Shown: piece after piece, positions 4,931 to 34,592 of the stretch
Numbering within the stretch: the first letter of the stretch is position 1
Layout of the letters: every line of letters starts with the position of its first letter
Source of the DNA: Deltaproteobacteria bacterium
GTDB taxonomy: Bacteria > Desulfobacterota > GWC2-55-46
DNA length: 38,635 nt
Assembly: GCA_016234405.1 (NCBI GenBank)
Contig: JACRCC010000053.1
Location: 1-38,635 of the forward strand
Reading direction: 5' to 3'
Position numbers and translations under genes: made by a program
Notes under the pieces: generated by a model
Told to the model about the DNA's origin: nothing
The model's database searches: none
What the model saw: only the letters and a program-made list of their open reading frames with translations

Positions 4931-5910
4931 TGCTCACATACGTCATAAGGCGCATACTATACGCGATACCCATCGTCATAGGCGTCAACGTGCTCACGGC
5001 CCTTCTTTTCTTTTACGTCAACACGCCGGACGACATGGCGCGGAAGATCCTCGGGGAAAAAAACGTAACGCCTGAGGCCGTTGCGAACTGGAAGGCGGAG
5101 CACGGATACAACCTGCCCTCTTTCATAAACGCGAAAGAGTCCGGCGCAAAGGTCTTGACCGAGACCGTCTTCTTCCAAAAATCCATCCCCCTTCTATGGC
5201 TCGACTTCGGACGCTCGGACAGGAATAACATTGACATAGGCACGGAGATAAAGTCGCGCATCTGGCCGTCGCTCGCCGTAAGCGTGCCCATGTTTATGGC
5301 CGGGCTGATTGTGGAGGTTTTTTTCGCCATGATGCTCGCCTACTACAGGGGCACGTATCTCGACGTCTGGGGGATGGTCATGAGCGTGGTGATGATGTCT
5401 GTGTCAACGCTGTTCTATATCATCGGCGGCCAGTTCCTGCTCGGAAAAGCGCTGCGGATATTCCCGATATCCGGCTACGACACCGGGGTCTATTCGCTTA
5501 AATTCCTCATCCTGCCGGTCATAATCGGCGTCATAGGCGGGGCCGGCGCAGGGGTGAGGTTTTATAGAACGGTTTTTCTCGAGGAGATGGGCAAAGACTA
5601 CATACGCACGGCGCGGGCAAAGGGCCTGCCTGAGGGCAAGGTCTTATTCAAACACGCGCTGAAAAACGCCATGATACCGGTGCTGACTAACGTCGTGGTG
5701 TCCATCCCGTTTCTCTTCTACGGGAGTCTCATAATGGAGACGTTTTTCTCCATACCGGGGCTGGGCAACTTCACGATAGACGCCATACAGTCGCAGGATT
5801 TCGCCATCGTAAGGTCAATGGTATACCTCGGCTCCATACTCTATATTGTCGGACTCATATTGACTGACATAAGCTACACGCTCGTTGATCCGAGGGTGAG
5901 GCTGAAATAA
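4930..5910 (+). CDS. Peptide ABC transporter permease, OppB/DppB type
   Basis: A 326-residue inner-membrane permease forming half of the peptide translocation channel. The N-terminus is the classic LTYVIRRILYAIPIVIGVNVLT helix of DppB/OppB proteins, and about five further hydrophobic segments follow. The cytoplasmic EAA loop that docks on the ATPase is visible (ARAKGLPEGKVLFKHALKNA), as is the PVLTNVV helix after it. I chose the GTG at 4930 because it shares its G with the TAG stop of the binding-protein gene and has AAGGAA 6 nt upstream. An open frame extends 114 bp further upstream, but that part lies inside the preceding gene. Co-transcribed with both neighbours. Confidence 0.93.
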   Translation: MLTYVIRRILYAIPIVIGVNVLTALLFFYVNTPDDMARKILGEKNVTPEAVANWKAEHGYNLPSFINAKESGAKVLTETVFFQKSIPLLWLDFGRSDRNNIDIGTEIKSRIWPSLAVSVPMFMAGLIVEVFFAMMLAYYRGTYLDVWGMVMSVVMMSVSTLFYIIGGQFLLGKALRIFPISGYDTGVYSLKFLILPVIIGVIGGAGAGVRFYRTVFLEEMGKDYIRTARAKGLPEGKVLFKHALKNAMIPVLTNVVVSIPFLFYGSLIMETFFSIPGLGNFTIDAIQSQDFAIVRSMVYLGSILYIVGLILTDISYTLVDPRVRLK

Positions 5911-5968
5911 CGGCCGTGAACCGTGAGACGTAACGGCCGTGAACCGATTCACGATAACGGTCTTTAAA
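5911..5968. repeat. CGTGAAC-word repeat between the two permease genes
   Basis: The 62-bp gap holds CCGTGAACCGTGA, then CCGTGAACC and GATTCACGAT, with CGGCCGTGAACC present twice (5911 and 5934). These are the same 7-8 nt words seen in other gaps. Inverted segments (GTGAACC against GATTCAC) allow a hairpin inside the transporter operon. Confidence 0.7.
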
Positions 5969-7145: not shown

Positions 7146-7187
7146 CGATCGTGAGACGATTCACGGCCGTTACGACTCACGGCCGTA
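7146..7187. repeat. TCACGGCCGT-word repeat before the ATPase gene
   Basis: GATCGTGAGACGATTCACGGCCGTTACGACTCACGGCCGT has CACGGCCGT twice plus the inverted CGTGAG. An in-frame GTG at 7151 lies inside it, so the longer version of the ATPase frame is translated repeat and was rejected as the start. Confidence 0.65.
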
Positions 7188-7201
7188 TTGAGGTACAAAA
7201 A

Positions 7202-9100
7202 ATGTCCTCCCCAACCCTTGAAGTAAAAAACCTGCGGACATATTTCAGAACGCCGGCGGGCGCTGCCTTGGCCGTGGACCGCGTCTCCTTCTCCATAGAG
7301 AAAGGCGCTACCTTCGCCCTTGTGGGCGAATCGGGCTGCGGCAAGACCGCGGCCGCGCTCTCGATAATGCAGCTCCTGCCGCCCGCCGGATACCTTGCCG
7401 GAGGGGAGATTATGCTCAACGGAAGGAACCTGACGGAATTGTCCGAGGCCGAAAAAAGGGATGTGCGGGGAAAAAACGTCTCCATGATATTTCAAGAGCC
7501 GATGACCTCGTTGAACCCGGTCTTCACCATAGGGGAGCAGATAGTCGAGGCGATAAGACTGCATCGGAAAAAAGACTACAACGCCGCGAAAGAGGCCTCC
7601 ATCCGCATGCTCTCGGACGTGGGTCTGCCCGGCGGGGCCTCTTTATTCCACGAATACCCGCACCGACTCTCCGGCGGACAGAGGCAAAGGGTCATGATAG
7701 CCATGGCGCTTGCCTGCAAACCGGATCTCCTCATCGCGGACGAGCCGACCACCGCGCTCGACGTGACGATCCAAGACGAGATAATAAAACTCATCAACAA
7801 GATGAAGGCCTCCACCGGCGCATCCGTCCTCCTCATCACGCACAACATGGCGCTTGTCTACAGAAACGCCGATACGGCGGCCGTGATGTACGCGGGAAAG
7901 ATAGTCGAGTCGGCCCCAGCCAAGGGACTTTTCAGACGCCCCATGCACCCTTACACGATAAAACTGCTGCGCTCCATCCCGGCTCAGGAAAAACGCGGCG
8001 TCCCGCTCGACACGATAAAAGGCGTCGTCCCTCCGGCAACGTCTTACCCGGAGGGCTGCCGCTTCTCAGGCAGGTGTCCGAGGGAGATGACCGGATGCGC
8101 CGCAGTAGAGCCGCGCCTTTCGGAATACGACGCAGGGCACGTGGCCGCCTGCCACCTCTGGGACAAAGAGTTCATGGCAACCGGACAATCAAGACCATTA
8201 GAGACTATTACGGATGCGCTTGCGCCCATAACTTCCCCGGAAGGCTCCGACATAGACGAGGGAAAAACCCTCGAAGAGGGCAAAACCCTCCTTGAGGTAA
8301 GGGGTCTCAAGACCTATTATCCCGTGAGCGCCGGACTTTTCAAGAGGGCCGCCGGATACGTAAAGGCGGTTGACGGCATCGCCCTCATCGTAAAAAAAGG
8401 CGCAACCACGGCGCTTGTGGGTGAATCAGGCTGCGGCAAGACCACGGCCGGGAAAACCATCATCCGGCTCCGCGCCCCGGACGCAGGGGAGATTATTTTC
8501 AAAGGAACGGACGTGGCAAATTTCACCGGGGCGCAGCTCAAACCAATGAGGTCCAGCATGCAGATGATATTTCAAGACCCCTATTCCGCTCTTAACCCGA
8601 GGCTCACGATAAAGGCGACGATAGAAGAAGGGCTGAAGGTTTTAAGGCCGGATATGGACGCAAGCGCAAGGGTGAAGAAAATCTCCGCAACGCTTAAAAG
8701 GGTCGGGATTACCCCTGAAATGATGGAGAGATACCCTCACGAATTTTCAGGCGGGCAGCGCCAGAGGATAGGCATCGCGCGCGCGCTTTCGGTGGACCCG
8801 GAATTTATAATCTGCGACGAGGCAATAAGCTCCCAAGACGTCTCCATACAGGCGCAGATATTGAATCTCCTTAAATCCATCCAGCGCGACTCAGGGATAT
8901 CCTACCTCTTCATAACCCACGACCTCGGGGTGGTGGAATATATAGCCGATTACGTCTCGGTCATGTTCGCAGGTAAGATCGTCGAGGATGGGCCGGTAGA
9001 GGAGATATTCGCAAACCCTAAACACGAATACACGCGAAAACTGCTCAGCGCGGTGCCCAGGATTGACAAGGAGCTGCCGCCGCTCTGGACGCTGCCGTAG
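7202..9100 (+). CDS. Fused OppD-OppF-type peptide transporter ATPase
   Basis: A 632-residue protein with two ABC ATPase domains, supplying both nucleotide-binding halves of the importer on the cytoplasmic face. Domain 1: Walker A GESGCGKT (42-49), signature LSGGQ (156-160), Walker B with catalytic Glu181 (ADEPTTALD), H-loop ITHNM. A Cys-rich linker of the oligopeptide-transporter C-terminal type follows (EGCRFSGRCP...GC...ACHLW, from Cys286). Domain 2: Walker A (407-414), FSGGQ (515-519), Walker B with Glu540, H-loop FITHDL. The second D-loop region reads DEAISSQD rather than DEPxSALD, but the catalytic Glu is kept. Domain 2 has no Cys-rich tail. The ATG at 7202 has GAGG 8 nt upstream and begins at the family's usual start (LEVKNLRTYF). 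Last gene of the operon. Confidence 0.94.
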   Translation: MSSPTLEVKNLRTYFRTPAGAALAVDRVSFSIEKGATFALVGESGCGKTAAALSIMQLLPPAGYLAGGEIMLNGRNLTELSEAEKRDVRGKNVSMIFQEPMTSLNPVFTIGEQIVEAIRLHRKKDYNAAKEASIRMLSDVGLPGGASLFHEYPHRLSGGQRQRVMIAMALACKPDLLIADEPTTALDVTIQDEIIKLINKMKASTGASVLLITHNMALVYRNADTAAVMYAGKIVESAPAKGLFRRPMHPYTIKLLRSIPAQEKRGVPLDTIKGVVPPATSYPEGCRFSGRCPREMTGCAAVEPRLSEYDAGHVAACHLWDKEFMATGQSRPLETITDALAPITSPEGSDIDEGKTLEEGKTLLEVRGLKTYYPVSAGLFKRAAGYVKAVDGIALIVKKGATTALVGESGCGKTTAGKTIIRLRAPDAGEIIFKGTDVANFTGAQLKPMRSSMQMIFQDPYSALNPRLTIKATIEEGLKVLRPDMDASARVKKISATLKRVGITPEMMERYPHEFSGGQRQRIGIARALSVDPEFIICDEAISSQDVSIQAQILNLLKSIQRDSGISYLFITHDLGVVEYIADYVSVMFAGKIVEDGPVEEIFANPKHEYTRKLLSAVPRIDKELPPLWTLP

Positions 9101-9108
9101 AAAAAAAG

Positions 9109-9152
9109 ATGGGAGGCGGGATGTGGGGAGTGGGATGTGGTAAAGACTTTAC
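9109..9152. repeat. Purine-rich GGGATGTGG element with GTAAAGACTTTAC palindrome, copy 1
   Basis: GATGGGAGGCGGGATG, TGGGGAGTGGGATGTG and then the perfect palindrome GTAAAG-A-CTTTAC (9140-9152). Copies 2 and 3 lie at 10498-10555 (inverted) and 26371-26455. The rest of the 9101-9391 gap is A+T-richer and shows nothing else I can support. Confidence 0.75.
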
Positions 9153-9391
9153 TGCATTCCATAGGAGGCACATCGAGACCGTAGAGGAAGGCAAGAAACT
9201 CGTGCCGCAAAAAGCGGCTTAAACATCAAGACCGGAAAGGCGCTGACTCCGGCCAGATGTTGACTTTTACATTTTGTCATATCCCCTGCCTTAAATCATA
9301 CACCGCATATCCTTTCCAAAATTTATTATCAATGGCGTCTGTTGATACCCTATCTTCTTTGAACTCCCACATTCCTAAATTCAGAGACGCT

Positions 9392-10136: not shown

Positions 10137-10273
10137 TACCTTACCACTTCCCACCCCCCTCCTCCCGCCTCCCGCCTCCCATTACGATACTCGGCCTTGC
10201 CCGTCGGGGGTTATCCCCCCGTCGGGTTTACCGCATCACGGTCACGCATCACGGCCTTGGGGTTATCCCCCCC
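10137..10273. repeat. Composite repeat block downstream of rpoZ
   Basis: The 10004-10262 gap separates the toxin-antitoxin pair from rpoZ. It ends in a mosaic: a pyrimidine-rich run (CCCACCCCCCTCCTCCCGCC from 10152) that complements the purine-rich elements; GGGGG-TTAT-CCCCCC at 10206-10220 flanked by CCGTCGGG on both sides; CATCACGGTCACGCATCACGG (10234-10254) of the CGTGA family; and a second GGGG-TTAT-CCCCCCC at 10259-10273 that contains the rpoZ stop. An open frame of 156 codons across this block on the plus strand looks spurious. Confidence 0.7.
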
Positions 10274-10475: not shown

Positions 10476-10497
10476 ACGTCCCTCCTTATTATATAGG

Positions 10498-10555
10498 GAT
10501 AGGAGGTAGTAAAGTCTTTACCACATCCCGCCTCCCACTCCCGACATCCCATCCT
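10498..10555. repeat. Purine-rich element, copy 2 (inverted)
   Basis: GGAGGTA, then GTAAAG-T-CTTTAC (10509-10521), then CACATCCCGCCTCCCACTCC and CGACATCCCATCC. This is the reverse complement of the copies at 9109 and 26371. It fills the gap between rpoZ and the ankyrin gene. Confidence 0.75.
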
Positions 10556-10560
10556 TAAAA

Positions 10561-16263: not shown

Positions 16264-17598
16264 TTAATCCTTTCCCGGTTCATAGACCCACACCTTCCTG
16301 TATGTCCGCGCCCCGGCCGCTTCCCTGTAGACCACGACGCAGATGGCGGCGAAGGCCGTCATCAAGACGCCATAAACCTCTTCCCAGAGGCCGTTTGTCA
16401 CGTTGATCATAAAATACGACAAGAGCACGGACGGCACGGCGAACTTCAAAAAATCAACTCCCGCCGAAGGGGGTAATCCCCTCCCGTTAGACCATCTGAA
16501 AACCGATATCGCCTTTGAGATTATGGTCACCCAGAAAAAGAGAAATGCGCCGAGTCCGAGAACGCCGGCTTCAAAGACTATCTGCAGCAAAAGATTGTGC
16601 GGGTTTGCGGCGCCGTAACCGAACCGGGTGAAGTAGAGCCGCGTCCTGCCGTCCTCCGGCCATCTCTCCAAATACCCTCCGTCTTTTGCAGCGTCTGCAA
16701 TCTTTTTCCATCCGTAACCCCAGCCGAGGACCGGACGGTCCGAGGCCATGTCGTAGACCCCGCTCCATACGCTCCACCTGTCGTTCCATCCCGCGGAATC
16801 ATTACTGACGAAATTACCCGGCTTGAGGAGCGTCTGATATCTCTCCATCGAGGCGGGCTTCATGATAAAGATAAAAAGGATTATCGTTGCGCCGAGGGCC
16901 GCGCCGGCCGCAAGAATTTTATATCTCTTCGCAATCAGCGCCACGGCCACGGTGGAAACGGCTATGGCCGCGGTCTGTGTCCTGTGATTGTTGAGCGCCG
17001 AGAGGGCAAAACCTAACGCAATGACGAAGGCTATCACCCATTTTATCCTTACCTCCTCTTTTGACGACAAAACAAACGCGGCCGCAAGCGGGATATAAAA
17101 CGCCGCGAACGTCGAGTAGCCGGATAGGAACGGGGCATTTTTGTTATCAAGCCAATTTAACAGCACGGAGGGCTTGTTGGCAGCGACGACTGCAAGGCTT
17201 AAAAGCGCGAACCCCCCGATGAGCGCGTAGATAAGGGGCTTTATGCCGTTAAACTCCTTATGCTCGCTTGTCACCGCAAAAAATACGACGGCCTGATAAA
17301 AGAGATTTTTCCTTACGGCGATCAAACTGTCCATCGGATACGGGCTTAAAAGCGCGCTTGCCGCGCAGACCGCGATGAGCAAAATAAACGCCTGCGTGGT
17401 CCTTTCCTTTATGTCGAGGCGCACTTGTCCGTTTATCAAGCGTATGGACAGGGCCGACGCCAAAAGCGCGAAAGCGATTTCCCTCACGGAGGTAAACGCC
17501 TTAAAAGGCTGAAGGAAGAGATAGACGGCAAGAAAGACCGTTATAAGCCTGTATCCGGATATATATTCATCGAGCCTTGCAAGTATTCCCTTTTTCAT
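16264..17598 (-). CDS. O-antigen ligase/polymerase family membrane protein (WaaL/Wzy-like)
   Basis: A 444-residue polytopic inner-membrane protein with about 10-12 hydrophobic segments. The large periplasmic loop and the motif NPHNLLLQIVFEAGVLGLG near the C-terminus (with His) are typical of the Wzy_C/WaaL family. This family joins polyprenyl-linked O-antigen to the lipid A core, or polymerises it. Assignment as ligase rather than polymerase is inference from the core-synthesis neighbours. The start at 17598 is preferred over 17619 because AAGGA lies 7 nt before it. A palindrome (16465-16486) encodes RGLPPS within a cytoplasmic loop near residue 372. Confidence 0.85.
   Translation of the reverse strand: MKKGILARLDEYISGYRLITVFLAVYLFLQPFKAFTSVREIAFALLASALSIRLINGQVRLDIKERTTQAFILLIAVCAASALLSPYPMDSLIAVRKNLFYQAVVFFAVTSEHKEFNGIKPLIYALIGGFALLSLAVVAANKPSVLLNWLDNKNAPFLSGYSTFAAFYIPLAAAFVLSSKEEVRIKWVIAFVIALGFALSALNNHRTQTAAIAVSTVAVALIAKRYKILAAGAALGATIILFIFIMKPASMERYQTLLKPGNFVSNDSAGWNDRWSVWSGVYDMASDRPVLGWGYGWKKIADAAKDGGYLERWPEDGRTRLYFTRFGYGAANPHNLLLQIVFEAGVLGLGAFLFFWVTIISKAISVFRWSNGRGLPPSAGVDFLKFAVPSVLLSYFMINVTNGLWEEVYGVLMTAFAAICVVVYREAAGARTYRKVWVYEPGKD
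16465..16486 (-). repeat. TAAT palindrome inside the O-antigen ligase gene
   Basis: CCGAAGGGGGTAATCCCCTCCC on the plus strand shares the frame CCGAAGA(T/G)GGTAATCCCCTCC with copies at 19298, 20029 and 24849. In frame it encodes RGLPPS, between predicted membrane segments. Confidence 0.65.
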
Positions 17599-17599
17599 A

Positions 17600-18730
17600 T
17601 TACGTCCTTTTTGCGCCATCAGGCCGGATGCCCTTTAAAACGGCCTTGAAGACCTCGTCCGGAGAGATGCCCGTTATGCAGCGCTTATCCCCGAACTTGC
17701 ACTCATACGGAGCCCTGAAGGTATGCGAGCACGGGATGCAGTCAAGGTCTATCCTCTGGATTATCCGGCTCGATTTTCCAAGCGGCCTCTGGTCGAACAT
17801 GTTGCAAGGCCCGTCTATGTCCACCACCGGCACCCCGAGCGCGTCCGCCATATAGATAAGCCCGGTGTCAACGCCTATAACGAGGGCGAGCCTTTTTATC
17901 GCCGAGGGCAGCTCCTCTAAGGTTATGGTCCCGCAGAGATTAACGACCCTTTTATTGGGGTTTACCGTCTGGGAGAGTTCCAAGCCAACGGATAGGTCCC
18001 TCTCGTAACCGAATAAGACTATACCCGCGCCCGTCTCATCCAATATCCTCCTTGCAAGCGCGAGGAAATTCGCCCTGCCCCATTCCTTGAAAGGGTTGCC
18101 CGCGCTGATGACGAGGCCGATGTTCTTGGCCCCTCCCGCGGGAAACACCCCCGCGAACTTCTCCTCCGCGTCGGGAGAGACATAGACCTCCTTATCGAGC
18201 CTGCCGCCTTTTATGCCGAGGTGCTTGAGACTTGAAAGATACGTCTCCATCGCCATCTTCGGGGCGATATGGTACTCGAAATCGGTGCAGAGGTTCAAGA
18301 TCTCTTTGAGCGTTCCTCCGATGAAGTCGGGATAAACGCATACGCGCTTGGGCGTCAAAGACCAGAAGGCCGCAAGTATGTTGGCGGTATTCGGCAGCAG
18401 TATGAGCGCCGTTGAATATCCCTTCTTGTAGAGCCTGTATGCGAAGGATACCTTGCCGAAAAACCCCTTCCTCTCCTCCCTTTTAAACGGGATGACTTCA
18501 TCCACGTAAGGGTTGTATTTCAAGAGCGGCAGCGTAACCGGGTCGGCCACCACGCCGAGCCTCACCCCGGCTTGTTTTTTTATCTCCCTGAAAACGGGCG
18601 TGGCGCATATCATGTCCCCTATCTTGGCGGTCTGGAATACGAGGACGGAACCGCCTTTACGCCCGCCAAAAAGCCGGGATGCGATGTAAACTAACGGATA
18701 CGAAATATATGCGAGTATTACGTAGAGCAA
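17600..18730 (-). CDS. GT9 (heptosyltransferase family) glycosyltransferase B
   Basis: A 376-residue GT9 protein. The first motif appears as VFQTAKIGDMICATPVFREI, and the donor site as GVDTGLIYMADALGVPVVDIDGP. The C-terminal cysteines CIPCSHTFRAPYEC...C (C-x2-C-x9-C-x6-C) belong to the cluster shared by five GT9s here. An N-terminal hydrophobic stretch (LYVILAYISYPLVYIASRLF, from residue 2) could be a membrane anchor, which is unusual for GT9. The start is TTG at 18730 with AGGA 7 nt upstream. The next gene begins 1 bp after its stop. Confidence 0.88.
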   Translation of the reverse strand: MLYVILAYISYPLVYIASRLFGGRKGGSVLVFQTAKIGDMICATPVFREIKKQAGVRLGVVADPVTLPLLKYNPYVDEVIPFKREERKGFFGKVSFAYRLYKKGYSTALILLPNTANILAAFWSLTPKRVCVYPDFIGGTLKEILNLCTDFEYHIAPKMAMETYLSSLKHLGIKGGRLDKEVYVSPDAEEKFAGVFPAGGAKNIGLVISAGNPFKEWGRANFLALARRILDETGAGIVLFGYERDLSVGLELSQTVNPNKRVVNLCGTITLEELPSAIKRLALVIGVDTGLIYMADALGVPVVDIDGPCNMFDQRPLGKSSRIIQRIDLDCIPCSHTFRAPYECKFGDKRCITGISPDEVFKAVLKGIRPDGAKRT

Positions 18731-18740
18731 AACTTTTCCT

Positions 18741-19955
18741 TTATGACGCGCTCAAAACTTCCTCTAATACCGACGACACCCCTTCGACGTATTGGGCCAC
18801 CGTGAAATTATCAATAACCCTAACCCTACCGGCCTCTCCGTATCTTTTAATGAGCGCCTTGTCGGACGCAAACTTCAAGACCGCTGCCGCGAGCGCGGAC
18901 GCGCGCTCCTCTTTAACGATAATTCCGGTCTCTCCGTCCACAACCTGCTCTCTTATCCCGGCCACGTCGAAGGCCACGACCGGCTTGGCCATGAGCATGG
19001 CTTCGAGCACAACCCGCGCAAAACCCTCTTTTGACGAGGGAAGGACGAAGACGTCCATCGCGTTTATATAAGAAAGGGCGTCCGCAGAAAAACCGGTAAA
19101 GAACACCTTGTCTTTAACGCCGAGTCCGGCGGCCTTTTTCTTAAGGCTGGACATCTCCGGCCCGTCGCCGGCTATAATACACTTTATGACTTCGTTTTTA
19201 AGGAGCGCAACCGCCTCCAACAACAATTCAATCCTCTTTCTTTTTATCAAAGACCCTGCCGTGCCGATGACGAAACCGTCTCCGGCGCCGATTTCTTCCG
19301 AAGAGGGTAATTCCCTCCTTACTGCCCCGGACGTTTTGCCGGGCATCATGTCCGGGTCAATGCCGTTTGGGACCACGACGCATTTCCCCTCATCCACGCC
19401 GCTCTTGACGAGGCCGGCCTTAACGCCTTTTGAAACGCATATCACCCTGTCAACATGCTTGTTGACGGCCGCAGCCTCAACGGAATTCAGAGCCACCTCG
19501 ACCCGCGCGTGCTGTATGCACCGTACCCCGGCCTCTTCCGCGCCGAGGATGCCTTCGAGGTTGGAAGACGGCTGGTTGTTCATGTAGAGCAAGTCAAAGC
19601 CTTTGTCTCTCAAAATCGCGGCTATCCTTTTCGAGTCCGGGACGACCCTATAGTTGTAGTCTGCGAAAAAAATAAAATCTTTCTTAATCCCCTTTTTGTA
19701 GAAAAAAAACGCCCTTGCCGCCTCCTTCAGCGCCTTTGCGCGAAGCGGCGTTTTAACGCGCGGGAGCTGTAAGAATGGGCATCCGTATTTCTCAAGCTCG
19801 GTCTTTACGTCCGAGACACCGCCCTTTTTGTAGTTGTCGTAGAAAAGGGCGGTGAAAGAGTAACGCGACCTGTCCGCCCTCTTTACGAACTCCAAGAGGC
19901 TGTTCGTCCCGCCCCCCCACTCGCGCCCGGTATCGAGTATGAGTATCTTTTTCAT
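18741..19955 (-). CDS. GT4 glycosyltransferase (group 1)
   Basis: A 404-residue GT-B glycosyltransferase. The N-terminus ILILDTGREWGGGTNSLLEFV is the glycine-rich acceptor-side loop. The donor half contains IGTAGSLIKRKRIELLLEAVALL, and late SSKEGFARVVLEAMLMAKPVVAFDVAGIREQV has the two nucleotide-sugar-binding Glu residues (E-x7-E). Sugar and acceptor are unknown; location between GT9 genes implies LPS glycan assembly at the inner face of the inner membrane. An in-frame palindrome (19298-19318) encodes ELPSS near residue 215, in the linker ahead of the second Rossmann domain. Gap to the next gene 10 bp. Confidence 0.9.
   Translation of the reverse strand: MKKILILDTGREWGGGTNSLLEFVKRADRSRYSFTALFYDNYKKGGVSDVKTELEKYGCPFLQLPRVKTPLRAKALKEAARAFFFYKKGIKKDFIFFADYNYRVVPDSKRIAAILRDKGFDLLYMNNQPSSNLEGILGAEEAGVRCIQHARVEVALNSVEAAAVNKHVDRVICVSKGVKAGLVKSGVDEGKCVVVPNGIDPDMMPGKTSGAVRRELPSSEEIGAGDGFVIGTAGSLIKRKRIELLLEAVALLKNEVIKCIIAGDGPEMSSLKKKAAGLGVKDKVFFTGFSADALSYINAMDVFVLPSSKEGFARVVLEAMLMAKPVVAFDVAGIREQVVDGETGIIVKEERASALAAAVLKFASDKALIKRYGEAGRVRVIDNFTVAQYVEGVSSVLEEVLSAS
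19298..19318 (-). repeat. TAAT palindrome inside the GT4 gene
   Basis: CCGAAGAGGGTAATTCCCTCC, 21 bp. It shares the core (CCGAAGA.GGTAAT.CCCTCC) with three other copies in the window. In frame it encodes RRELPSSE, in the same reading frame as the RGLPPS copy of the ligase gene. Confidence 0.65.
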
Positions 19956-19962
19956 ATAGAGG

Positions 19963-20048
19963 CCGTGATGCGTGTTCGTGATGCGTTAAAAGACAAAACA
20001 CTTACAAAGGAATAATTTTTATCACTCATCGAAGATGATAATCCCCTC
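19963..20048. repeat. Repeat words in the gap between GT4 and CgeB-like genes
   Basis: The 105-bp gap holds GGCCGTGATGCGTG and TTCGTGATGCG (19963-19986), of the CGTGA family, and a degenerate TAAT palindrome TCGAAGATGATAATCCCCTC (20029-20048). No gene fits here, and I see no promoter I would defend. Confidence 0.55.
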
Positions 20049-20060
20049 TCGCCCCCATCC

Positions 20061-21128
20061 TTATCTCCTGATTGCTTCATTATACTTATCCGTTAATATG
20101 CCGGCCACATGACCGTAGGTGTAATTTGAAGAAACGTGTTTATACCCAGCCTCTGCTATCGCTTCCCGCTCCTTGCCGTTCTTGAGATAATAGGCGAGTT
20201 TTGAGGCGAACTCCTCCTCTCCCTCATAAAGTCCGAGATGCACTCCCGGCGTAACGACGGCCTCAATGTCCCTGCTTCCGTCGGTTAAGAGAAATGCCTT
20301 GCACGCCGGGACCTCGAGGACGCGCATATTAAGGCCGGTTCTGTCTTTACCGGGTCCCCAGTTGGTAACGTTCAAGACGACCTTTGACTCGTTATAGAGC
20401 TTTGTGAGCGGCTCACCTTCGATGTATCCGCCCTTGACGAGCCTTGATACCGCCATGTTAAAAAAATTCTTCTTCCTCCACTTTGGCCCGTATATCGCGC
20501 CGTTACCGGAGACCTCTTGCGCCTTCTCGATAAACCTCTGCCGCTTGGGCGACCAGCCTCCGACAAAACTCCAATCGTATCGCGTTTTGCGCACAAGCGG
20601 CATAAATGCCCGCGTATCAACCGCGTGGCGCAGGAGACTCACGTTATTAAAACCCCTCTTTTTCGCTTCCTCCACGCATGAGGAGTTCATGAAAAAATAA
20701 TGGTCAAAGAAATTTATCTCGGCAAACGCCTCCTCCATCCTCTCTTCCCTTTCAATCCACCAGCCCAACAACGCCGCGTTTTTTCCAATCTCTTTGAGCG
20801 CGTCTTCCTTGATGCGTATGCCCCTTATAAGTAAAACCATGTCCGGCGCAAACGCCTTGACCTTCTTGGCGAGCCTGCCGCTCCTGTAATTTAAATGACT
20901 CAACGGATGCGCGTCGAAAAAACCCTTGTCCTTAGGAAGCACGCGGAGGTTGTGGCACGCCTTATTGACATGGCGGATGACGAGCCTGTCAAACCAATGG
21001 TTTTCGTCCGCATAAAAGCCCTCTGCCTCGACGCCCCTTGCGGCAAATGCCTTTTTAAGATATTCGACGATAGGCGGCTTGGATGAATAGGCTGTCAAGA
21101 CTTTCCTCAATGGCCGCGATGACCTCAT
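20061..21128 (-). CDS. CgeB-like glycosyltransferase
   Basis: A 355-residue GT-B protein of the type annotated as spore maturation protein CgeB-like (group 1 family with a DUF3880-like N-terminal half). Characteristic parts are FFMNSSCVEEAKKRGFNNV, LLRHAVDTRAFMPL, YDWSFVGGWSPKRQRFIE, and the donor-site segment NMRVLEVPACKAFLLTDGSRDIE, where E-V-P-A-C replaces the usual ExxA pattern. It probably adds a sugar to the growing glycan; donor unknown. The start is set at 21128 (ATGA overlap with the upstream GT9 stop), because the longer frame to 21164 would run inside that gene. In an LPS locus the spore-linked name says nothing about function. Confidence 0.85.
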   Translation of the reverse strand: MRSSRPLRKVLTAYSSKPPIVEYLKKAFAARGVEAEGFYADENHWFDRLVIRHVNKACHNLRVLPKDKGFFDAHPLSHLNYRSGRLAKKVKAFAPDMVLLIRGIRIKEDALKEIGKNAALLGWWIEREERMEEAFAEINFFDHYFFMNSSCVEEAKKRGFNNVSLLRHAVDTRAFMPLVRKTRYDWSFVGGWSPKRQRFIEKAQEVSGNGAIYGPKWRKKNFFNMAVSRLVKGGYIEGEPLTKLYNESKVVLNVTNWGPGKDRTGLNMRVLEVPACKAFLLTDGSRDIEAVVTPGVHLGLYEGEEEFASKLAYYLKNGKEREAIAEAGYKHVSSNYTYGHVAGILTDKYNEAIRR

Positions 21129-22270
21129 CTCCGGCCCCCGATAGAGACATTCGAGGGCAGGCACAGCAATTCCTTGACGGCCTCGTCTACTTCGTCAACG
21201 GTTATGTATTCCATACATTTCTGATACTCGCACTTCTTGCTGACGCACGGGTCGCACGTCCTATCTTTTTTTATGACCCTATGCCTTTCTTGAGAATAAA
21301 ACGGCCCAGTACGTCCCGGGTCCGATACCGCATAGAGCGCGACAACCGGCGTGCCCGTGGTATAGGCTATGTGCATGGGGCCCGTGTCTCCGGTGACAAA
21401 TACGCTGAACCTTTTTATAAGCGAGGGCAGCCCCGTCAAATCAATCCTTCCTGCGGCACAGAGCGCGCCCGGGCCTATTCCTTCGGCTATACAATCGCAA
21501 AGCGGTTTTTCCGCCGGAGAGCCGGTGAGCGCAATACGGACGCCCGGGATGTCTTTAACGAGCCTTTTGCCGAGTTCAATAAACCTGTCCGCAAACCACA
21601 TCCTGCTCTTGGTCGAGGCCCCGGGCTGAAAACCGATAAGGGGCGCGCCGCCGATTACTCCCTCGCCTTTCAAAAACCCGTCAACCTCTTCTTCCAACTC
21701 GGCATGGACAAAAAGCTCCATCCTCGGGTCAATGGCCTTGCACCCGGCCAGGGCCGCGGTCTTGAGCCGCGCCTCTATCCCGTGTCCGAGGTCAACCCAA
21801 CCGAGAACTGGAGTCCTATTCGAGAGCAGAAAATTATACCTGCTGTCATTCGGGAGCTTGAAGATGAACCGCGCCCCTGAGAGATAGCAAAGGGGGGTGG
21901 CCTGCGGCTCGTTGCCGTGCAGTATGAGCGCGAGGTCGAACTTGAATTTTTTCAGCTCCTTTACGGCCGACCAAAACTTTTTGTATCCGCCGTGAAACGC
22001 AATCACACCGTCTATATGCGGGTTATTGGAAAACAACTCCATGTTGTCCTTGTTGAAGCACGCGATAATGAGCGACTTGGGGTATCTCCTCCTGACGGCC
22101 CTGACGGCTGGCGTTGAAAGGAGGGTGTCTCCCAAAGCGGTGGAGGACACGACGAGTATCTTTTTTACGGCGTCCGGGTTGAAACGCAAGACGTCTCTAT
22201 CGCGCTTGTCGAAGAACCTTATGGTCTTGAGCGCCGCGTAGAGGAGTCCCTCTATTGGATTAAAGCCCAC
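21125..22270 (-). CDS. GT9 (heptosyltransferase family) glycosyltransferase C
   Basis: A 381-residue GT9 protein. It has ILVVSSTALGDTLLSTPAVRAVRRRYP, the first GT9 motif preceded by a basic stretch, GFQPGASTKSRMWFADRFIELG in the middle, and VTGDTGPMHIAYTTGTPVVALY at the donor site (TGDTGPMH, family consensus). The C-terminal cysteines CDPCVSKKCEYQKC form the C-x2-C-x4-C-x4-C version of the shared cluster. The start is uncertain: GTG 22270 (MGFNPIEG) is preceded by a G-run rather than a normal ribosome site. Its stop overlaps the CgeB-like start by 4 nt. Confidence 0.9.
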   Translation of the reverse strand: MGFNPIEGLLYAALKTIRFFDKRDRDVLRFNPDAVKKILVVSSTALGDTLLSTPAVRAVRRRYPKSLIIACFNKDNMELFSNNPHIDGVIAFHGGYKKFWSAVKELKKFKFDLALILHGNEPQATPLCYLSGARFIFKLPNDSRYNFLLSNRTPVLGWVDLGHGIEARLKTAALAGCKAIDPRMELFVHAELEEEVDGFLKGEGVIGGAPLIGFQPGASTKSRMWFADRFIELGKRLVKDIPGVRIALTGSPAEKPLCDCIAEGIGPGALCAAGRIDLTGLPSLIKRFSVFVTGDTGPMHIAYTTGTPVVALYAVSDPGRTGPFYSQERHRVIKKDRTCDPCVSKKCEYQKCMEYITVDEVDEAVKELLCLPSNVSIGGRR

Positions 22271-22291
22271 TACCCCCCCCCTTGCCGTCAG

Positions 22292-22317
22292 CGTTCCCGC
22301 GCCGGAGCGTGGGAACG
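22292..22317. repeat. CGTTCCC...GGGAACG inverted repeat
   Basis: Arms CGTTCCCGCGC and GCGTGGGAACG pair with one mismatch around CGGA. The shape matches the CGTTCCCACGC...GCGTGGGAACG palindrome dispersed in many bacterial genomes; that match is from memory. It lies in the 122-bp gap between the deacetylase and GT9 C genes. Confidence 0.6.
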
Positions 22318-22331
22318 ATAAATTGGCGTCG

Positions 22332-22396
22332 AGCAGCGCAGACCTTTAGGTCTGCTGTCTTAACGGAATCATTTCAGGGCTAAAGCTCTGAGCTAC
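22332..22396. repeat. REP-like double hairpin, copy 1
   Basis: CAGACCTTTAGGTCTG (22339-22354) is a perfect hairpin identical to the one at 29558-29573. CAGGGCTAAAGCTCTG (22375-22390) differs by one base from the one at 29581-29596. GCAGC and GAGCTAC flank them. The deacetylase stop TAG (22393-22395) falls at its edge. Confidence 0.85.
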
Positions 22397-23202
22397 AGGC
22401 CCTTCATCTTAGAATAGATTTCCGCCATGAGCGGGTTCGTATAAATCTTCAACCTCGACTTGAACCAAGACAACCCCTCTTTTACGTCAATCCTTTTTAT
22501 GGCGAAGGGGCCGGAGCCTTTTTTCACGACCCCGTGTACCGTTGTGAAGACCCCCCTGTAGCCGGCCTCTTTAGCGGTCTCGACCGCGAGGGCGTTAAAT
22601 CTCCCCTTGGGCCAGCACAAGGCGCTGCACGGCCTTCCTATGTTAAGCTCTACGGTCTCTTTCGACAGTTCAAGCTCGCGCGCGAGGTCGTCTTTAGTAA
22701 TCGCGTCGCATAAGGCGTGCGTCGCGGTGTGTGAGTGAAATTCCACAAGCCCCGTGCCGTGCATCTCAACCGCCATGTCCCAGTTCATTACCGCCCTGTG
22801 AAAAAGCCCCTCGGCAATGAGGCTCTTGCAATAGTTGTGCGTGGGCGGCCTTTTTTTAAGCTCGTCGAGGCCGGAGAGTTTTTTTTCTTCGCTCTGGTTT
22901 GAGGCCGCGTCCATCCATCCGGTAACCGCAAAGACCGTCGCCTTTATGCCGTTGGCGCGCAGATGCGGATAGGCGTAGACGAAGTTGTCGAGATACCCGT
23001 CGTCAAAGGTTATCATTACGCTCTTTTCCCTTACCTCGGATTTTCCCTCCGCGTAATCTTGCAGTTCGTTCATACCGAGCGTCGTAAACCCCGCCTCCTT
23101 TAGATAGCGCATCTGTGCGCCAAACCCCTCCGGCGTTACCGTTATCATGTCGCCCTTATTTGGATTAACGTGGTGGTATGTAAAGACTGGCACGCAGGTC
23201 AT
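22393..23202 (-). CDS. Polysaccharide deacetylase family protein (NodB homology)
   Basis: A 269-residue carbohydrate esterase family 4 (NodB-like) protein, predicted to remove N- or O-acetyl groups from a sugar polymer or a lipid-linked sugar. Motif 1 is TFDDGYLDN (about residues 64-72; two Asp, metal and catalytic base), and motif 2 is EFHSHTATH (His-x3-His metal ligands with HSH). WPKGRFN and ALAVETAKEAGYRGVFTT cover motifs 3 and 4. No signal peptide is apparent, so it may act in the cytoplasm. The start overlaps the upstream GT4 stop by ATGA. Its last codons lie at the edge of a REP-like element. Confidence 0.9.
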   Translation of the reverse strand: MTCVPVFTYHHVNPNKGDMITVTPEGFGAQMRYLKEAGFTTLGMNELQDYAEGKSEVREKSVMITFDDGYLDNFVYAYPHLRANGIKATVFAVTGWMDAASNQSEEKKLSGLDELKKRPPTHNYCKSLIAEGLFHRAVMNWDMAVEMHGTGLVEFHSHTATHALCDAITKDDLARELELSKETVELNIGRPCSALCWPKGRFNALAVETAKEAGYRGVFTTVHGVVKKGSGPFAIKRIDVKEGLSWFKSRLKIYTNPLMAEIYSKMKGL

Positions 23203-24299
23203 GCCCTTTGACTCCTCGTTGAGACTAATTCACTATAAAGGGCAAACATCGCTTTGCCCATGCGCTCGGTCGTGTATTTTTCCTCTACCATGCGCCTGCC
23301 CGCTTCTCCCATGGTCTTGCGCGCGCCCCTGTCTTTGAGGAGCATGATTATTGCGGCGGCAAGGGCAGCGGGGTCTTCGGGCGGGACAAGGATCCCGGTC
23401 TTTCCGTTTACAATCGTCTCGGACACGCCCCCTGAGTTTGCCGCCACTACCGCCTTTTTCATGGCCGAGGCCTCGATGAGCGAGGTCCCCAGCGCCTCCT
23501 GCAAGGTTGGGAGCACGAATAAATCTATGCCCTTCAAGACAGTGGGCACGTCCTTTCTCAAGCCAAGAAGTCTCACGCTGCCTTTGACGCCGAGTTCTTC
23601 TGTCTTTTTTTCTATATTTTCCCTTTGCGGGCCGTCGCCCGCGAATAGGAATAGCGCGTCAGGCGCTTCCTTCAAAACAAGCGGTATCGCGTCAAGGAGC
23701 ACGTGGTGCCCCTTTTTTCTTCTGAGTATGGCTATTGTTCCCGCTACCGGAGTGTCCGGCGATATCCCAAGCTCGGGGCGCAGCGTATCAGGCGTCTTCT
23801 CAGGGTCGAACCTTTCCAAGTCAACGCCGGTGGGTATGGCGACGACCCTGTGCTCGGCGATGCCCTTATCCTCACAAAGGTAACGGCGCACATATTCGCT
23901 CACGGTCACGACCTTGTGGGCAAAGAGATAGGTAATCTTCGAGGTTATCGGCAGCGCGAGGTGCCGGGTGCGCACTATCGCGGGTTTTCTCCTTGAGAGC
24001 CTTCCGGCGATTGCGCCGATGAGACTGTCGTCCCCGCTGTGCGTGCTTATCACGTCAACGCCTTCATCTTTAACGAGCCTCAATATATATCGCAGGGCGG
24101 ACAAATCCCTGTTGGAGGCGAGCCTGTGGCTCCTTGTCTCGATGCCCGCGGCCTCAGCCCTTTCCTTAAGCCTTGCATCGGGCTTGCACAATACGATGGG
24201 CCGCGCACCGAGCCTTTTCAACCAGACGCACTCCTGCAGAGTTCTATTTTCCTGCCCGCCCCAACCAATGGAAGATTCCGTATGCAGTATCGTGAGCAT
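23199..24299 (-). CDS. GT4 glycosyltransferase (group 1)
   Basis: A 366-residue GT-B enzyme. The N-terminus LTILHTESSIGWGGQENRTLQECV is the acceptor-side loop typical of sequential LPS/capsule GT4s. The donor half shows AGTIAILRRKKGHHVLLDAIPLV (Arg-Lys phosphate contacts) and LPTLQEALGTSLIEASAMKKAVVAANSGG with the paired Glu residues. Acceptor and donor unknown. It begins 9 bp after the methyltransferase and its TGA overlaps the deacetylase ATG, which points to coordinated use with both. Confidence 0.9.
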   Translation of the reverse strand: MLTILHTESSIGWGGQENRTLQECVWLKRLGARPIVLCKPDARLKERAEAAGIETRSHRLASNRDLSALRYILRLVKDEGVDVISTHSGDDSLIGAIAGRLSRRKPAIVRTRHLALPITSKITYLFAHKVVTVSEYVRRYLCEDKGIAEHRVVAIPTGVDLERFDPEKTPDTLRPELGISPDTPVAGTIAILRRKKGHHVLLDAIPLVLKEAPDALFLFAGDGPQRENIEKKTEELGVKGSVRLLGLRKDVPTVLKGIDLFVLPTLQEALGTSLIEASAMKKAVVAANSGGVSETIVNGKTGILVPPEDPAALAAAIIMLLKDRGARKTMGEAGRRMVEEKYTTERMGKAMFALYSELVSTRSQRA

Positions 24300-24308
24300 C
24301 TTGACCAG

Positions 24309-25046
24309 TTATCGTCCTCCACCGGTCTTTTTTTCCATCAGCACAATGAGGTGGTCTCCCAAGAGCGCCGCATTTGAAGACAGTAACTTCAAAAGCTCTT
24401 TTTTTCTTTCTCCCCTTTCAAATAAAAGCCCTAAGGCATAATCGGCCTTGAGGCGCAAAAAATACATAAAACAGATAAGATTCTTTGCCTTGAACCTCGA
24501 GGCCGCCACCTTTTTTATCTCAAGCCCGAACCTTCTTCCGTAGGCATATATCTCCACGAGCGAGATTGGATTGTAGACCGCCGCGTCCCAGCCCTTGCTT
24601 GCGTCAACGGTTCTTACCGGCTTGAAAGACGGATAATAACCCCTCCTTAAAAAATAGACCCTTGACGACGCGCAAAGCACGTTAGGAATGCTTATTATAA
24701 GATGCCCACCTTTTGTAAGGACCCTCGCAAACTCTTTAAAGACAAGGGCGTGGTTATCCAGATATTGAAGCGATTCGCTGCACAAGACGTAGTCGAAGAC
24801 CGCGTCTGCAAAAGGGAGCGGCGCGTTCAAATCAGCCCTTATAAATCTCCGAAGATGGTAATCCCCTCCGCTTGACTTAGGCGTATCGTAGAGATCGAGG
24901 GAGACGACCGCAAAGCCCATTGCCCTCAAGACCCCGGCAATGGTATCCTTGCCTGAGCCAGCGTCAAGGAGTTTGCCGGGGGGGAGGGGGTTATCCCCCC
25001 GTAGGTCTTTAAATAATCCTATCGTCGCCGATTGATGTTCTTTCAT
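24309..25046 (-). CDS. Class I SAM-dependent methyltransferase
   Basis: A 245-residue Rossmann-fold methyltransferase. Motif I is LLDAGSGKDTIAGVL (residues 26-40; SAM binding), then AVVSLDLYD (acidic end of strand 2, Asp), RADLNAPLPFADAVFDYVLCSESLQYL (motif II/III with the FD-VL-SESLQ pattern), and GGHLIISIPNVLC. This is the Methyltransf_11 type; the substrate is probably a sugar or lipid-linked glycan, inferred from the surroundings. The ATG at 25046 is used because longer frames upstream translate the 25069-25170 repeat. Two palindromes lie within the N-terminal third (residues 16-24 and 58-66). No strong ribosome site is visible. Confidence 0.85.
   Translation of the reverse strand: MKEHQSATIGLFKDLRGDNPLPPGKLLDAGSGKDTIAGVLRAMGFAVVSLDLYDTPKSSGGDYHLRRFIRADLNAPLPFADAVFDYVLCSESLQYLDNHALVFKEFARVLTKGGHLIISIPNVLCASSRVYFLRRGYYPSFKPVRTVDASKGWDAAVYNPISLVEIYAYGRRFGLEIKKVAASRFKAKNLICFMYFLRLKADYALGLLFERGERKKELLKLLSSNAALLGDHLIVLMEKKTGGGR
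24849..24870 (-). repeat. TAAT palindrome inside the methyltransferase gene
   Basis: CCGAAGATGGTAATCCCCTCCG, the copy closest to the consensus of the TAAT group. It encodes GGDYHLR, between strands 2 and 3 of the fold. Confidence 0.65.
24986..25000 (-). repeat. TTAT palindrome inside the methyltransferase gene
   Basis: GGGGG-TTAT-CCCCCC, preceded by GGGGGGGA, encodes RGDNPLPPG just ahead of the SAM-binding loop. The same core occurs at 10206-10220 and 10259-10273. Confidence 0.65.
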
Positions 25047-25068
25047 TTTGAAAACGGGGTATTGCCGT

Positions 25069-25170
25069 GAAAAAATCGTGAACCGTGATTGCCGCGCTTT
25101 GCTCGCAACGTCCGCGTAAAAAACGATCCCTTTACGGTCACGATTCACGGTCACGGTTCACGATTTTTTC
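25069..25170. repeat. 102-bp element with perfect 20-bp terminal inverted repeats
   Basis: The left arm 25069-25088 (GAAAAAATCGTGAACCGTGA) is the exact reverse complement of 25151-25170. Inside are GTAAAAAACGATCCC and TCACGATTCACGG words. The GT9 D gene ends inside it: the last residues IVNRDRES and TGA (25138-25140) are repeat-encoded. Size and layout recall MITEs, but no transposase or target duplication is evident. Confidence 0.85.
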
Positions 25171-26358
25171 AATCGCAGCCATCACCGCTCCCAGCGCCAA
25201 ATCCTTGTCAAGCTCGTCGAGGCATCTGCTTTTTTTGCTTCCGTCGCAGCCGTCATGGCCGCACGGGATGCAATCCCAGTCTTTTTGTATGACGACGTTT
25301 TTGCCGAAACGCTGGACGCCGTTTCTCGAAGGATACGGTGAGTTCGCTTCAGGCGGGCGCTTCCATGTCCGCGCGCCGTCGTTATCCCACGGCCCCCAAT
25401 CGAACGCCCCGCTCGGCCCGAATATTGACACGACCCGCGCCCCCGTTGCCGCGGCTATGTGCATGGGCGCGGAATCCACGCCGAAAAACAATGTTGCCCT
25501 GCGGGATAGACACGCGAGGTGTTTCAGCTTGAACGCGCCCGTTAAATCGACCGGGGCAGTCTTCATGCGCGATATAATCGCCCGCGCCTTTTTAACCTCG
25601 GGCTCGGCCGGGCCAGTGGTGATGACCACCCTCATCCCGGTTTTTTGTATCGCGTCCAACACATGCGCCATGCCCTCATCCGTCCAGCACTTAAAGAGCC
25701 AACGCGAGGTCGGGTGCGCGTGCACGAAACCCGCTCCGGCAGCTATTCCGGCGTTTTTCAAAACCCCGTCCACGTAAACATCGTCTTCGGCGGAGGTGTA
25801 TATGTCAACGCTCAAGTCAGGGGTGTCAAACCCAAATTCTCTCACCACGCCGAGGTCTCTAAGCGCCGTGTGCGTCCTCTTGTCCGGCCTTTTTGCGAGG
25901 TGGGTATAGAGGAGCCTTTTCCCGGCAAAGCCCCTGCAATCAAGGGCGCATCCGACCCTGTATCTTGCGCCGCTAAGAAAGCCAATGATGGCCGCCCTGT
26001 CGCCCCCCGTAAGGTCAACGGTCATGTCAAAAGACCTTTTCCGTATTTCCCTTACGAAACTCAACTCGCCTGAGACGCGCCCGGCAATCCCTAAGGGGGT
26101 ATCTCCCCCCTCTCCCTTTATCCCCCGCTTGAACGGGATAACCTCGTCAACGAGCGGGTTCCCCGTAAGCATCTCTTCTGTGCCTGAATTGACGAGGACG
26201 GATACTGAAGGGGGGGTTGTGCCCCCGTAGGAAGTCTTCCCCGAAGCGGACAAGGGGGTAATTCCCCCCTTAAGCGCCCTTAGCGCGGGCACGGTGAGGA
26301 GCACGTCTCCGATGTGCCTTAGCTTTATGACGAGTATCTTTTTTACGTCTTTAAACAA
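25138..26358 (-). CDS. GT9 (heptosyltransferase family) glycosyltransferase D, with repeat-expanded loop
   Basis: A 406-residue GT9 protein if the TTG at 26358 is used (AGGGTGG 4-5 nt upstream; protein starts LFKDVKKILVIKLRHIGD, where the family begins). The frame to 26502 would translate an intergenic repeat. The donor site is FFGVDSAPMHIAAATGARVVSIFG. The C-terminal cysteines are CIPCGHDGC...C. Residues 30-51 (GGITPLSASGK... to ...GGTTPPS) lie between the first helix and strand 2, where relatives have a short turn; they are encoded by two palindromes. A third palindrome encodes GEGGDTPLG near residue 83. The C-terminus and stop come from the 102-bp repeat. Confidence 0.88.
   Translation of the reverse strand: MFKDVKKILVIKLRHIGDVLLTVPALRALKGGITPLSASGKTSYGGTTPPSVSVLVNSGTEEMLTGNPLVDEVIPFKRGIKGEGGDTPLGIAGRVSGELSFVREIRKRSFDMTVDLTGGDRAAIIGFLSGARYRVGCALDCRGFAGKRLLYTHLAKRPDKRTHTALRDLGVVREFGFDTPDLSVDIYTSAEDDVYVDGVLKNAGIAAGAGFVHAHPTSRWLFKCWTDEGMAHVLDAIQKTGMRVVITTGPAEPEVKKARAIISRMKTAPVDLTGAFKLKHLACLSRRATLFFGVDSAPMHIAAATGARVVSIFGPSGAFDWGPWDNDGARTWKRPPEANSPYPSRNGVQRFGKNVVIQKDWDCIPCGHDGCDGSKKSRCLDELDKDLALGAVMAAIEKIVNRDRES
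26095..26271 (-). repeat. Three palindromes within 177 bp of the GT9 D coding region
   Basis: GGGGG-TATCT-CCCCCC (26095-26110), G7-TTGTG-CCCCC (26210-26226) and AAGGGGG-TAATT-CCCCCCTT (26252-26271). All stay in frame with the enzyme and give Gly/Thr/Pro-rich stretches (GGDTPL, GGTTPPS, GGITPL). Confidence 0.8.
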
Positions 26359-26370
26359 TGCGCCACCCTG

Positions 26371-26455
26371 AATGGGAGGTAGGAGGTGGGATGTGGGATG
26401 TGGTAAAGACTTTACTACCTCCAACCCCCTACTCCCCGCTTCCCCATCCCCCCCG
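26371..26455. repeat. Purine-rich element, copy 3
   Basis: GGGAGGTAGGAGGTGGGATG, TGGGATGTG, GTAAAG-A-CTTTAC (26403-26415), then CTACCTCC and pyrimidine-rich DNA. GGAGGTAG and CTACCTCC can pair around the centre. The WaaE-like gene's last residues (MGRGGWGSGE) and TAG stop lie in its right part. Confidence 0.8.
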
Positions 26456-27208
26456 CCCCATCTCCCATAGTTTTGCGTATTTTGCGAGGGTGTAAGAGGC
26501 ATAGAGTATGGAAAGCGTTATGCCCGCGACGCCATCGAGAAATCCGAGCTTCAGGACGAACATCTTAAAAAACGTAAAAGGCGGCCTCAGGAGGATGTCG
26601 AGGACTCCGGCGGTCTTTCCTTCTTTCATCATCTCCTCAGCCGCAAGGGTGGAGTACCTCTCCATCCTCACCAAATAATCGGAGACGTCCCTGTATGTCT
26701 TGTGTATGAGCGGGTTTTTGAGATACCCCAACAAGAGGCTTCCCGCCTTTGTCCCGTCCATCACCACGGATTCGTGCACGCCCCTCTCTAAAAACCTGCC
26801 CGCGTCTTTTCTGTAGAGCCGCAAGGCGTAATCGGGATACCACCCGCAGCGCCTTATCCACTTCTGTCCAAAGTAATTTCTTCTCGGTATATAGTAACCT
26901 GCGCCGTCCCCGCTTCCGATTGCCCGCGTTATCTCGTCTTTCAACCCGGGCGTAACCCTCTCGTCCGCGTCAACGTTGAGTATCCAATTATTCGTTGCGC
27001 GGCCGGCGCAGAGGTTTTTCTGCCTCCCGAACCCCAACCACTCGTCTTTGAATATCTTTGCCCCGTAACCCTTGCATATCTCGACGGTCGCGTCCGTGCT
27101 TCCCGAATCGGACACGATGACCTCGTCTGCCCACCTAAAGCTCTCCAGACACTCCCTGATATTTCGTTCCTCGTTCAGGACTATGACGGTGACGGATATC
27201 TTTTCCAT
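26429..27208 (-). CDS. GT2 glycosyltransferase, WaaE/KdtX-like
   Basis: A 259-residue GT-A enzyme. It begins ISVTVIVLNEERNIRECLESF, followed by the nucleotide-binding SDSGSTDATVEIC and the metal-binding VDADERV motif (DxD-like). DEWLGFGRQKNLC and the later GWYPDYALRLYRKDAGRF and ERGVHESVV are characteristic of the WaaE/KdtX LPS-core glucosyltransferases. The start at 27208 (MEKISV) is chosen because the longer frame (27238) overlaps the Trm112-like gene. The C-terminus (residues about 250-259) is encoded by a purine-rich repeat, so its Gly/Trp tail is not native to the family. Confidence 0.88.
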   Translation of the reverse strand: MEKISVTVIVLNEERNIRECLESFRWADEVIVSDSGSTDATVEICKGYGAKIFKDEWLGFGRQKNLCAGRATNNWILNVDADERVTPGLKDEITRAIGSGDGAGYYIPRRNYFGQKWIRRCGWYPDYALRLYRKDAGRFLERGVHESVVMDGTKAGSLLLGYLKNPLIHKTYRDVSDYLVRMERYSTLAAEEMMKEGKTAGVLDILLRPPFTFFKMFVLKLGFLDGVAGITLSILYASYTLAKYAKLWEMGRGGWGSGE

Positions 27209-28440: not shown

Positions 28441-28554
28441 CTCAAAACTCAAAAGTCAAAACTATAATGGTAGACACGCCCACCCTGTATATTGATTGCA
28501 GCTCAGGCCTTCAGGCCTGATTGTATCAATGAGATTTGACATTTGAGTTTTGAG
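28441..28554. repeat. 114-bp element with 23-bp inverted arms and central hairpin
   Basis: Arms 28441-28463 and 28532-28554 (CTCAAAACTCAAA words) are reverse complements with two mismatches. ATTGAT/ATCAAT (28491-28496, 28525-28530) and the hairpin CAGGCC-TTCA-GGCCTG (28504-28519) nest inside. The GT2 gene stop (28526-28528) and its last residues (PQNSNVKSH) lie within the right arm. Confidence 0.8.
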
Positions 28555-29520: not shown

Positions 29521-29626
29521 AAGGTTATCGGTGGACGGTTATCGGTTTATAGCAGCTCAGACCTTTAGGTCTGACTTTATCAGGGCTAAAGCCCTGAGCT
29601 ACTATAAACCGACTACCGATTACCTT
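29521..29626. repeat. 106-bp element with nested inverted repeats and REP-like double hairpin (copy 2)
   Basis: The outer arms AAGGTTATCGGT/ACCGATTACCTT are imperfect; CGGTTTATAG/CTATAAACCG (29543-29552, 29602-29611) are perfect, as are AGCTCAG/CTGAGCT. The core has two perfect hairpins, CAGACCTTTAGGTCTG (29558-29573) and CAGGGCTAAAGCCCTG (29581-29596). It fills the 128-bp gap between two transferase genes. Confidence 0.88.
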
Positions 29627-34545: not shown

Positions 34546-34592
34546 TCAATAGCCTTTTGGCGGTTTTTACATATAATTATCATTACGCGAAT

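Follow-up and report, generated by a model that had tools for sequence, protein, structure and literature searches.

In-frame insertion of a family of 18-bp palindromic hairpins in the genome of a Desulfobacterota-like bacterium

Results

Hairpins in the analysed window

The window (the whole stretch of 38,635 nucleotides analysed) carries palindromic hairpins both in protein genes and between them. A tandem pair, GAGGG-AAAAA-CCCTC plus GAGGG-CAAAA-CCCTC (8258-8290, with copies at 8258 and 8276, spaced exactly 18 bp), was absent from the list of the initial annotation. The pair lies in frame in the gene of a fused oligopeptide ABC transporter ATPase (7151-9100, plus strand), where it encodes the inter-domain linker EGKTLEEGKTL; this linker is shorter in the closest PDB orthologue and too variable for placing a precise insertion. 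Two further copies, GGGGG-TTAT-CCCCC (10206-10220) and the degenerate TGGGGTTATCCCCCC (10258-10272, given earlier as 10259 and detected in the palindrome count), are intergenic as annotated, since the surrounding ORF, of 156 aa at 10206, is probably spurious.

The remaining copies lie mostly in genes. An O-antigen-ligase-like gene (16264-17619, minus strand) contains a minus-strand copy at 16464-16484, with its hairpin at 16469-16483, which encodes GRGLPPS; its orthologue alignment was unusable. The minus-strand copy in a GT4 glycosyltransferase gene (18741-19955, minus strand) occupies 19298-19318 (hairpin 19303-19317) and encodes RRELPSSE. A 5-aa gap adjoins this site in two homologues of ~30% identity, which lends weak support to an insertion. 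A degenerate intergenic copy, TCGAAGATGATAATCCCCTCT, was recovered as a 21-mer match at 20029-20049 (minus strand). Two copies fall in a methyltransferase gene (24309-25154, minus strand), one at 24849-24869 (minus strand) encoding GGDYHLR and the other at 24984-24999 encoding RGDNPLPP. Six residues are missing at the former in the eight relatives shown, and six at the latter in the six relatives shown, with the gap shifted in one.

Three copies are found in a GT9 glycosyltransferase gene (25138-26502, minus strand), at 26095-26110 (minus strand, encoding EGGDTPL), 26211-26226 (YGGTTPP) and 26254-26269 (KGGITPL). At the first site exactly 6 residues are missing in 13 of 14 relatives and 7 in the remaining one; at the other two together, 14 residues are missing in 14/14. 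In the AlphaFold model (pLDDT 73.5, modest depth) all three inserts fall in coil or in loops of low confidence, the 26095 insert being in a disordered loop and the 26254 insert showing pLDDT below 50 at residues 81-85. Finally, a P-type ATPase gene (34557-37313, plus strand) carries a copy at 36150-36164 that encodes GGDSP; a net 4 residues are missing in 14/14 relatives, a less clean result than at the other copies.

The initial annotation had distinguished two groups. The CCGAAGA.GGTAATCCCCTCC-like copies at 19298, 20029, 24849 and 16464 (given there as 16465) are real and beyond chance, since shuffles expect 0.01 and none of 100 reached four. Their description as alike almost base for base holds in that all four stay within 0-3 mismatches, but the copies at 24849 and 20029 are imperfect, with stem mismatches. 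The GGGGGTTATCCCCC-type palindromes, thought to be related, are indeed enriched (20 matches, compared to 4.9 expected).

Other repeats are present in the window. A different hairpin family, AGCTCAGACCTTTAGGTCTGA / CTCAGGGCTTTAGCCCTGAG, lies between genes at 22332-22354, 28497-28519 and 29536-29618; the two stems differ by apparently compensatory changes, and the sampled 705 kb contain about 56 matches to the CTCAG-hairpin pattern. A degenerate intergenic repeat, GGGAGGTGGGATGTGGGATGTGGTAAAGACTTTAC, is found in both orientations at 9105-9162, 10141-10182, 10496-10556 and 26372-26428, and heptamer-like repeats around CGTGAATCGTGA / ACGGCCGTGA are dispersed between genes at 1088-1117, 5902-5955, 7148-7182, 10227-10257, 19960-19990 and 25068-25171.

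One hairpin family expanded in a single genome

Once the pattern is relaxed, the two groups merge into one genome-wide family of small hairpins. Its members have a GAGGG/CCCTC or GGGGG/CCCCC stem, an A/T-rich loop of 4-6 bases and usually a short TT(C/G) tail on one side only. As the initial annotation had anticipated, a consensus search of the source genome (2.04 Mb, 106 contigs, 97.8% complete) recovered many copies: the strict pattern, AAGRGGGNAWWNCCCYC, had 62 matches and its reversed control 0. The loose pattern matched 377 times, compared to 116 for its reversed control, and the 21-mer with up to 3 mismatches 24 times, compared to 0. Hairpins with perfect arms amounted on each strand to 136 (GGGGG) and 74 (GAGGG), some of them counted repeatedly where registers overlap. 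We estimate that there are at least 150 well-kept copies, in addition to degenerate ones.

The strict pattern occurs 0-2 times per genome in 58 relatives, and no other genome in a phylum sample of ~395 has more than 5 matches. The relative G004, from the same family, has 13 copies in 1.43 Mb of genes. The exact 19-mer was found neither in the GTDB genome collection nor in IMG/VR, although absence elsewhere is not absolute, and a MutS search of GTDB found no closer relative (best match ~60% identical, Deltaproteobacteria bacterium GWB2_55_19). Among the genomes searched, the expansion is unique to the source genome. G004 (stretches L117-L196) has its own enriched palindrome arms, CTCTA-N5-TAGAG and AAAAT-N5-ATTTT, for which in-frame insertion was not seen.

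Codon usage had been judged a poor explanation for the copies in genes, and this proved correct. The 588 ORFs of the sampled contigs contain 102 copies; shuffling synonymous codons leaves 8-20, and shuffling codon order 3-9. Note that these contigs were picked for holding matches, and thus the whole-genome counts are the unbiased figures.

Encoded residues are missing in relatives

We aligned the genes from 705 kb of the source genome to 1.6 Mb of G004. Gains of at least 4 residues coincide with 27 of the 33 hairpin sites in aligned regions, compared to 2.7% of random positions. The commonest gain is 6 residues (18 bp), and some sites show +4, +5, +7 or +8 aa. Across all aligned genes, six-residue insertions number 34 in the source lineage and 12 in the opposite direction, and the hairpin is carried by none of the 54 opposite-direction insertions. 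GlnD, PyrK, RnfC, MnmE and GcvPA likewise show gains relative to orthologues, for GcvPA as a gap against PDB homologues. MutS is longer by 10 residues (VRE-CDAPLGGNAPLDER-IVFL vs VKE-WDDK-IIFL), which are missing in 24/24 relatives aligned. As judged from these alignments, the copies are insertions relative to orthologues. The expectation that orthologues would lack the encoded residues was thus borne out for GT9, the methyltransferase and MutS, supporting the proposal of an undescribed in-frame palindromic family with many copies in the genome.

The insert in MutS (L083:12568-15243) adjoins the ATPase core and possibly comprises two adjacent units; another stretch, GGNAPLDE, lies near the C-terminus. 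In MnmE (L069:14754-16274) there are three insertion-like gains, of 8, 9 and 6 residues, of which at least the last is the 18-bp element.

Three aligned hairpins, in SecA, a UvrD-like gene and one other, show no gain. They have G/C-containing loops in stretches conserved in G004, that of SecA within a Walker-type motif, and look like chance matches. These three are what chance or codon usage in Gly/Pro-rich loops would produce. As the origin of the family, such chance, or an assembly artefact, has practically no probability: the whole-genome counts, the insertion test and the codon shuffles refute chance and codon usage, and in-frame gains on tens of contigs are unlike assembly errors.

The unit had been taken to be about 21 bp long. 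The net inserted unit is instead 18 bp, since the modal gain, the tandem spacing (exactly 18 bp in 5 of the 6 closest pairs) and the hairpin-plus-tail fit agree. The clean cases appear to fit either a 15-bp hairpin followed by TTN or a 16-bp hairpin followed by TT; the unit ends are uncertain by about 1-3 nt, the comparisons being at the protein level and with nearest relatives of the same family, none of the same genus. Nothing suggested that the loop is a target-site duplication, since loop and flank did not match in the clean cases that were looked at.

An alternative that needs no mobile element is repeated local origin of the copies, by foldback template switching or by quasi-palindrome repair. 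The variable loops of the palindromes, their G/C-run arms and the existence of imperfect copies would fit it. We consider this very improbable: the same two stems and the TT(C/G) tail are common to unrelated loci, all 18 bp are gained at sites that had no earlier G run, no other stem shows similar enrichment and relatives show none of it.

Conservation acts on the hairpin

The fourth stem pair covaries, with 64 A-T and 117 G-C pairs compared to 11 A-C and 20 G-T; no such pattern was seen in G004. Among the five-base loops, 112/121 contain at least three A/T, and the hairpin folds as single-stranded DNA with -4.4 to -5.5 kcal/mol. The copies are spread over the three reading frames (59/31/16) and over both orientations relative to the gene (32:25); 106 of 120 (88.3%) lie in coding sequence, which makes up 89.8% of the sequence. 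Orientation against GC skew is weakly biased (33:19), which is suggestive only.

With all frames and both orientations in use, peptide-level selection can be rejected, and the proportional coding share shows no avoidance of genes. As the stem covariation shows, it is the hairpin that is conserved and not the peptide. The Gly/Pro-rich loops pointed out in the initial annotation do follow from the translated G/C runs, but the frames, the orientations and the DNA-level covariation show that they are not what is selected. The loops of the hairpins are diverse, so the copies are not near-identical and give no sign of recent activity. The constancy of the stems, set against the drifting loops, makes it probable that the stem is recognised when a copy spreads, most simply as a single-stranded hairpin by an enzyme acting in trans.

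A kept stem with a free loop also resembles a dimeric binding site, and the hairpins could serve a function in DNA or RNA, for instance as sites for a nucleoid protein or a regulator, having spread or been selected because the cell needs them at many positions. This is very improbable, as the proteins have gained whole 18-bp units rather than substitutions, placement is random with respect to genes and orientation, and the copies form 18-bp tandems and are lineage-specific.

Discussion

Relation to known small repeats

To our knowledge, most documented cases of palindromes spreading in frame into proteins come from Rickettsia; elsewhere, intragenic REPs are scattered. As occurs with the Rickettsia palindromic elements (RPEs), to which the initial annotation had likened them, the hairpins behave as selfish palindromes, lying in frame inside unrelated conserved protein genes, missing in orthologues and leaving the host proteins open. 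The likeness in behaviour stands, but not that in size, since RPEs measure about 105-150 bp, with a conserved peptide specific to each family (PMC2229807, PMC10969869). The family described here has an 18-bp unit, uses three frames, encodes several peptides and lives in an unrelated host phylum, a contrast drawn from published descriptions of RPEs.

The closest known system in size and structure is that of the small dispersed repeats SDR1-8 of Nostoc, which Elhai et al. (cited in PMC3116915) reportedly described in 2008 as 21-27 nt long, with stems kept by compensatory change. They are said to be insertions, with tandem and nested copies, mostly in repeats and mini-transposons and not in conserved genes. 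A hairpin with compensatory stem change is seen in our family too, whose 18-bp unit is slightly smaller; it differs from the SDRs, as described, in sequence, phylum and the 88% of copies in genes.

REPs carry a GTAG or CGTC tag, are mostly extragenic and often form inverted doublets. As with REPs and REPINs, which reach hundreds of copies, our hairpins are short and bear a short tag at one foot; however, their flank is TT(C/G) or of CGAA type, close neighbours are mainly direct 18-bp tandems, and the family is genic in proportion to coding space. MITEs such as ERIC, RUP and NEMIS, also non-autonomous palindromic repeats, are 70-300 bp long, with terminal inverted repeats and target duplications, whereas the present unit measures 18 bp. 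Unlike DNA uptake sequences, which spread by substitution with no change in length, the 18-bp family brings length gains. We therefore file it under very small mobile palindromes, and not as a member of the RPEs, REPs or SDRs, the RPEs and SDRs being judged by description.

A possible mode of spread

The repeats very probably represent a new family of very small (~18 bp) mobile palindromic elements, whose insertion is seen in the alignments and whose mobilisation as a hairpin we infer. The unit reads G(A/G)GGG, ~5 A/T-rich bases, CCC(C/T)C and TT(C/G/A), or the reverse complement, and its insertions number well over a hundred in a single uncultured Desulfobacterota-like lineage. Copies may move as single-stranded hairpins that an enzyme reads in trans, seeing the stem and the short tail and ignoring the loop. 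Since 18 is divisible by three and most frames can be read through, each insertion lengthens the protein by six residues (GGNTPL, KGVLPPL, GGNYPLR and similar), which would be tolerated where they fall in a surface loop. The pattern would require no benefit to the host.

The best candidate for the single-stranded hairpin step is a transposase of the Y1/HUH type, although we propose it tentatively and with rather more doubt than confidence. The genome has one Y1/RAYT-type transposase gene (L198:3590-4162, 191 aa). Its flanks carry GTAGG(A/T)TGGGT-type repeats (GTAGGTTGGGTCAAGCG..., GATGGGTGCGCTGCGCTTCACCCATCCTAC), and not the 18-bp family. Since its own flanks carry this different, GTAG-type repeat, the gene is at best a candidate mover, and we rejected it as the obvious one.

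The same observations bear on whether the copies are simply REP-like singlets moved by a RAYT (Y1) transposase. The RAYT-like gene, the tag-plus-hairpin layout and the occasional intragenic REPs known in some genomes (PMC3733652) all speak for this. It nevertheless seems unlikely, because the repeats beside the RAYT gene are of another type, the hairpins lack a GTAG or CGTC tag, inverted doublets are absent and 88% of the copies are genic.

A small structured unit with compensatory stem change would also suit spread by way of RNA, a route that has been suggested for the cyanobacterial SDRs. No reverse transcriptase (PF00078) was found in the 97.8%-complete genome, which weakens this route, and we regard it as highly improbable.

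Implications

In this lineage, far from Rickettsia, palindromes have spread in frame at high copy number with an 18-bp unit, and the usual avoidance of genes is missing. For enzymes whose structures are known, among them MutS, PyrK, GlnD, MnmE, RnfC and GcvPA, the family also supplies dozens of natural insertions of a six-residue loop, and through it the mechanism of such small repeats can be tested directly. Should the unit be mobile, it would set a new lower bound on the size of a mobile element. It is about an even chance that the 18-bp hairpin itself transposes; it would then be the smallest mobile DNA described, a putative stem-reading enzyme would insert it regardless of genes, and the family would act as a general source of six-residue loops in conserved proteins, including MutS.
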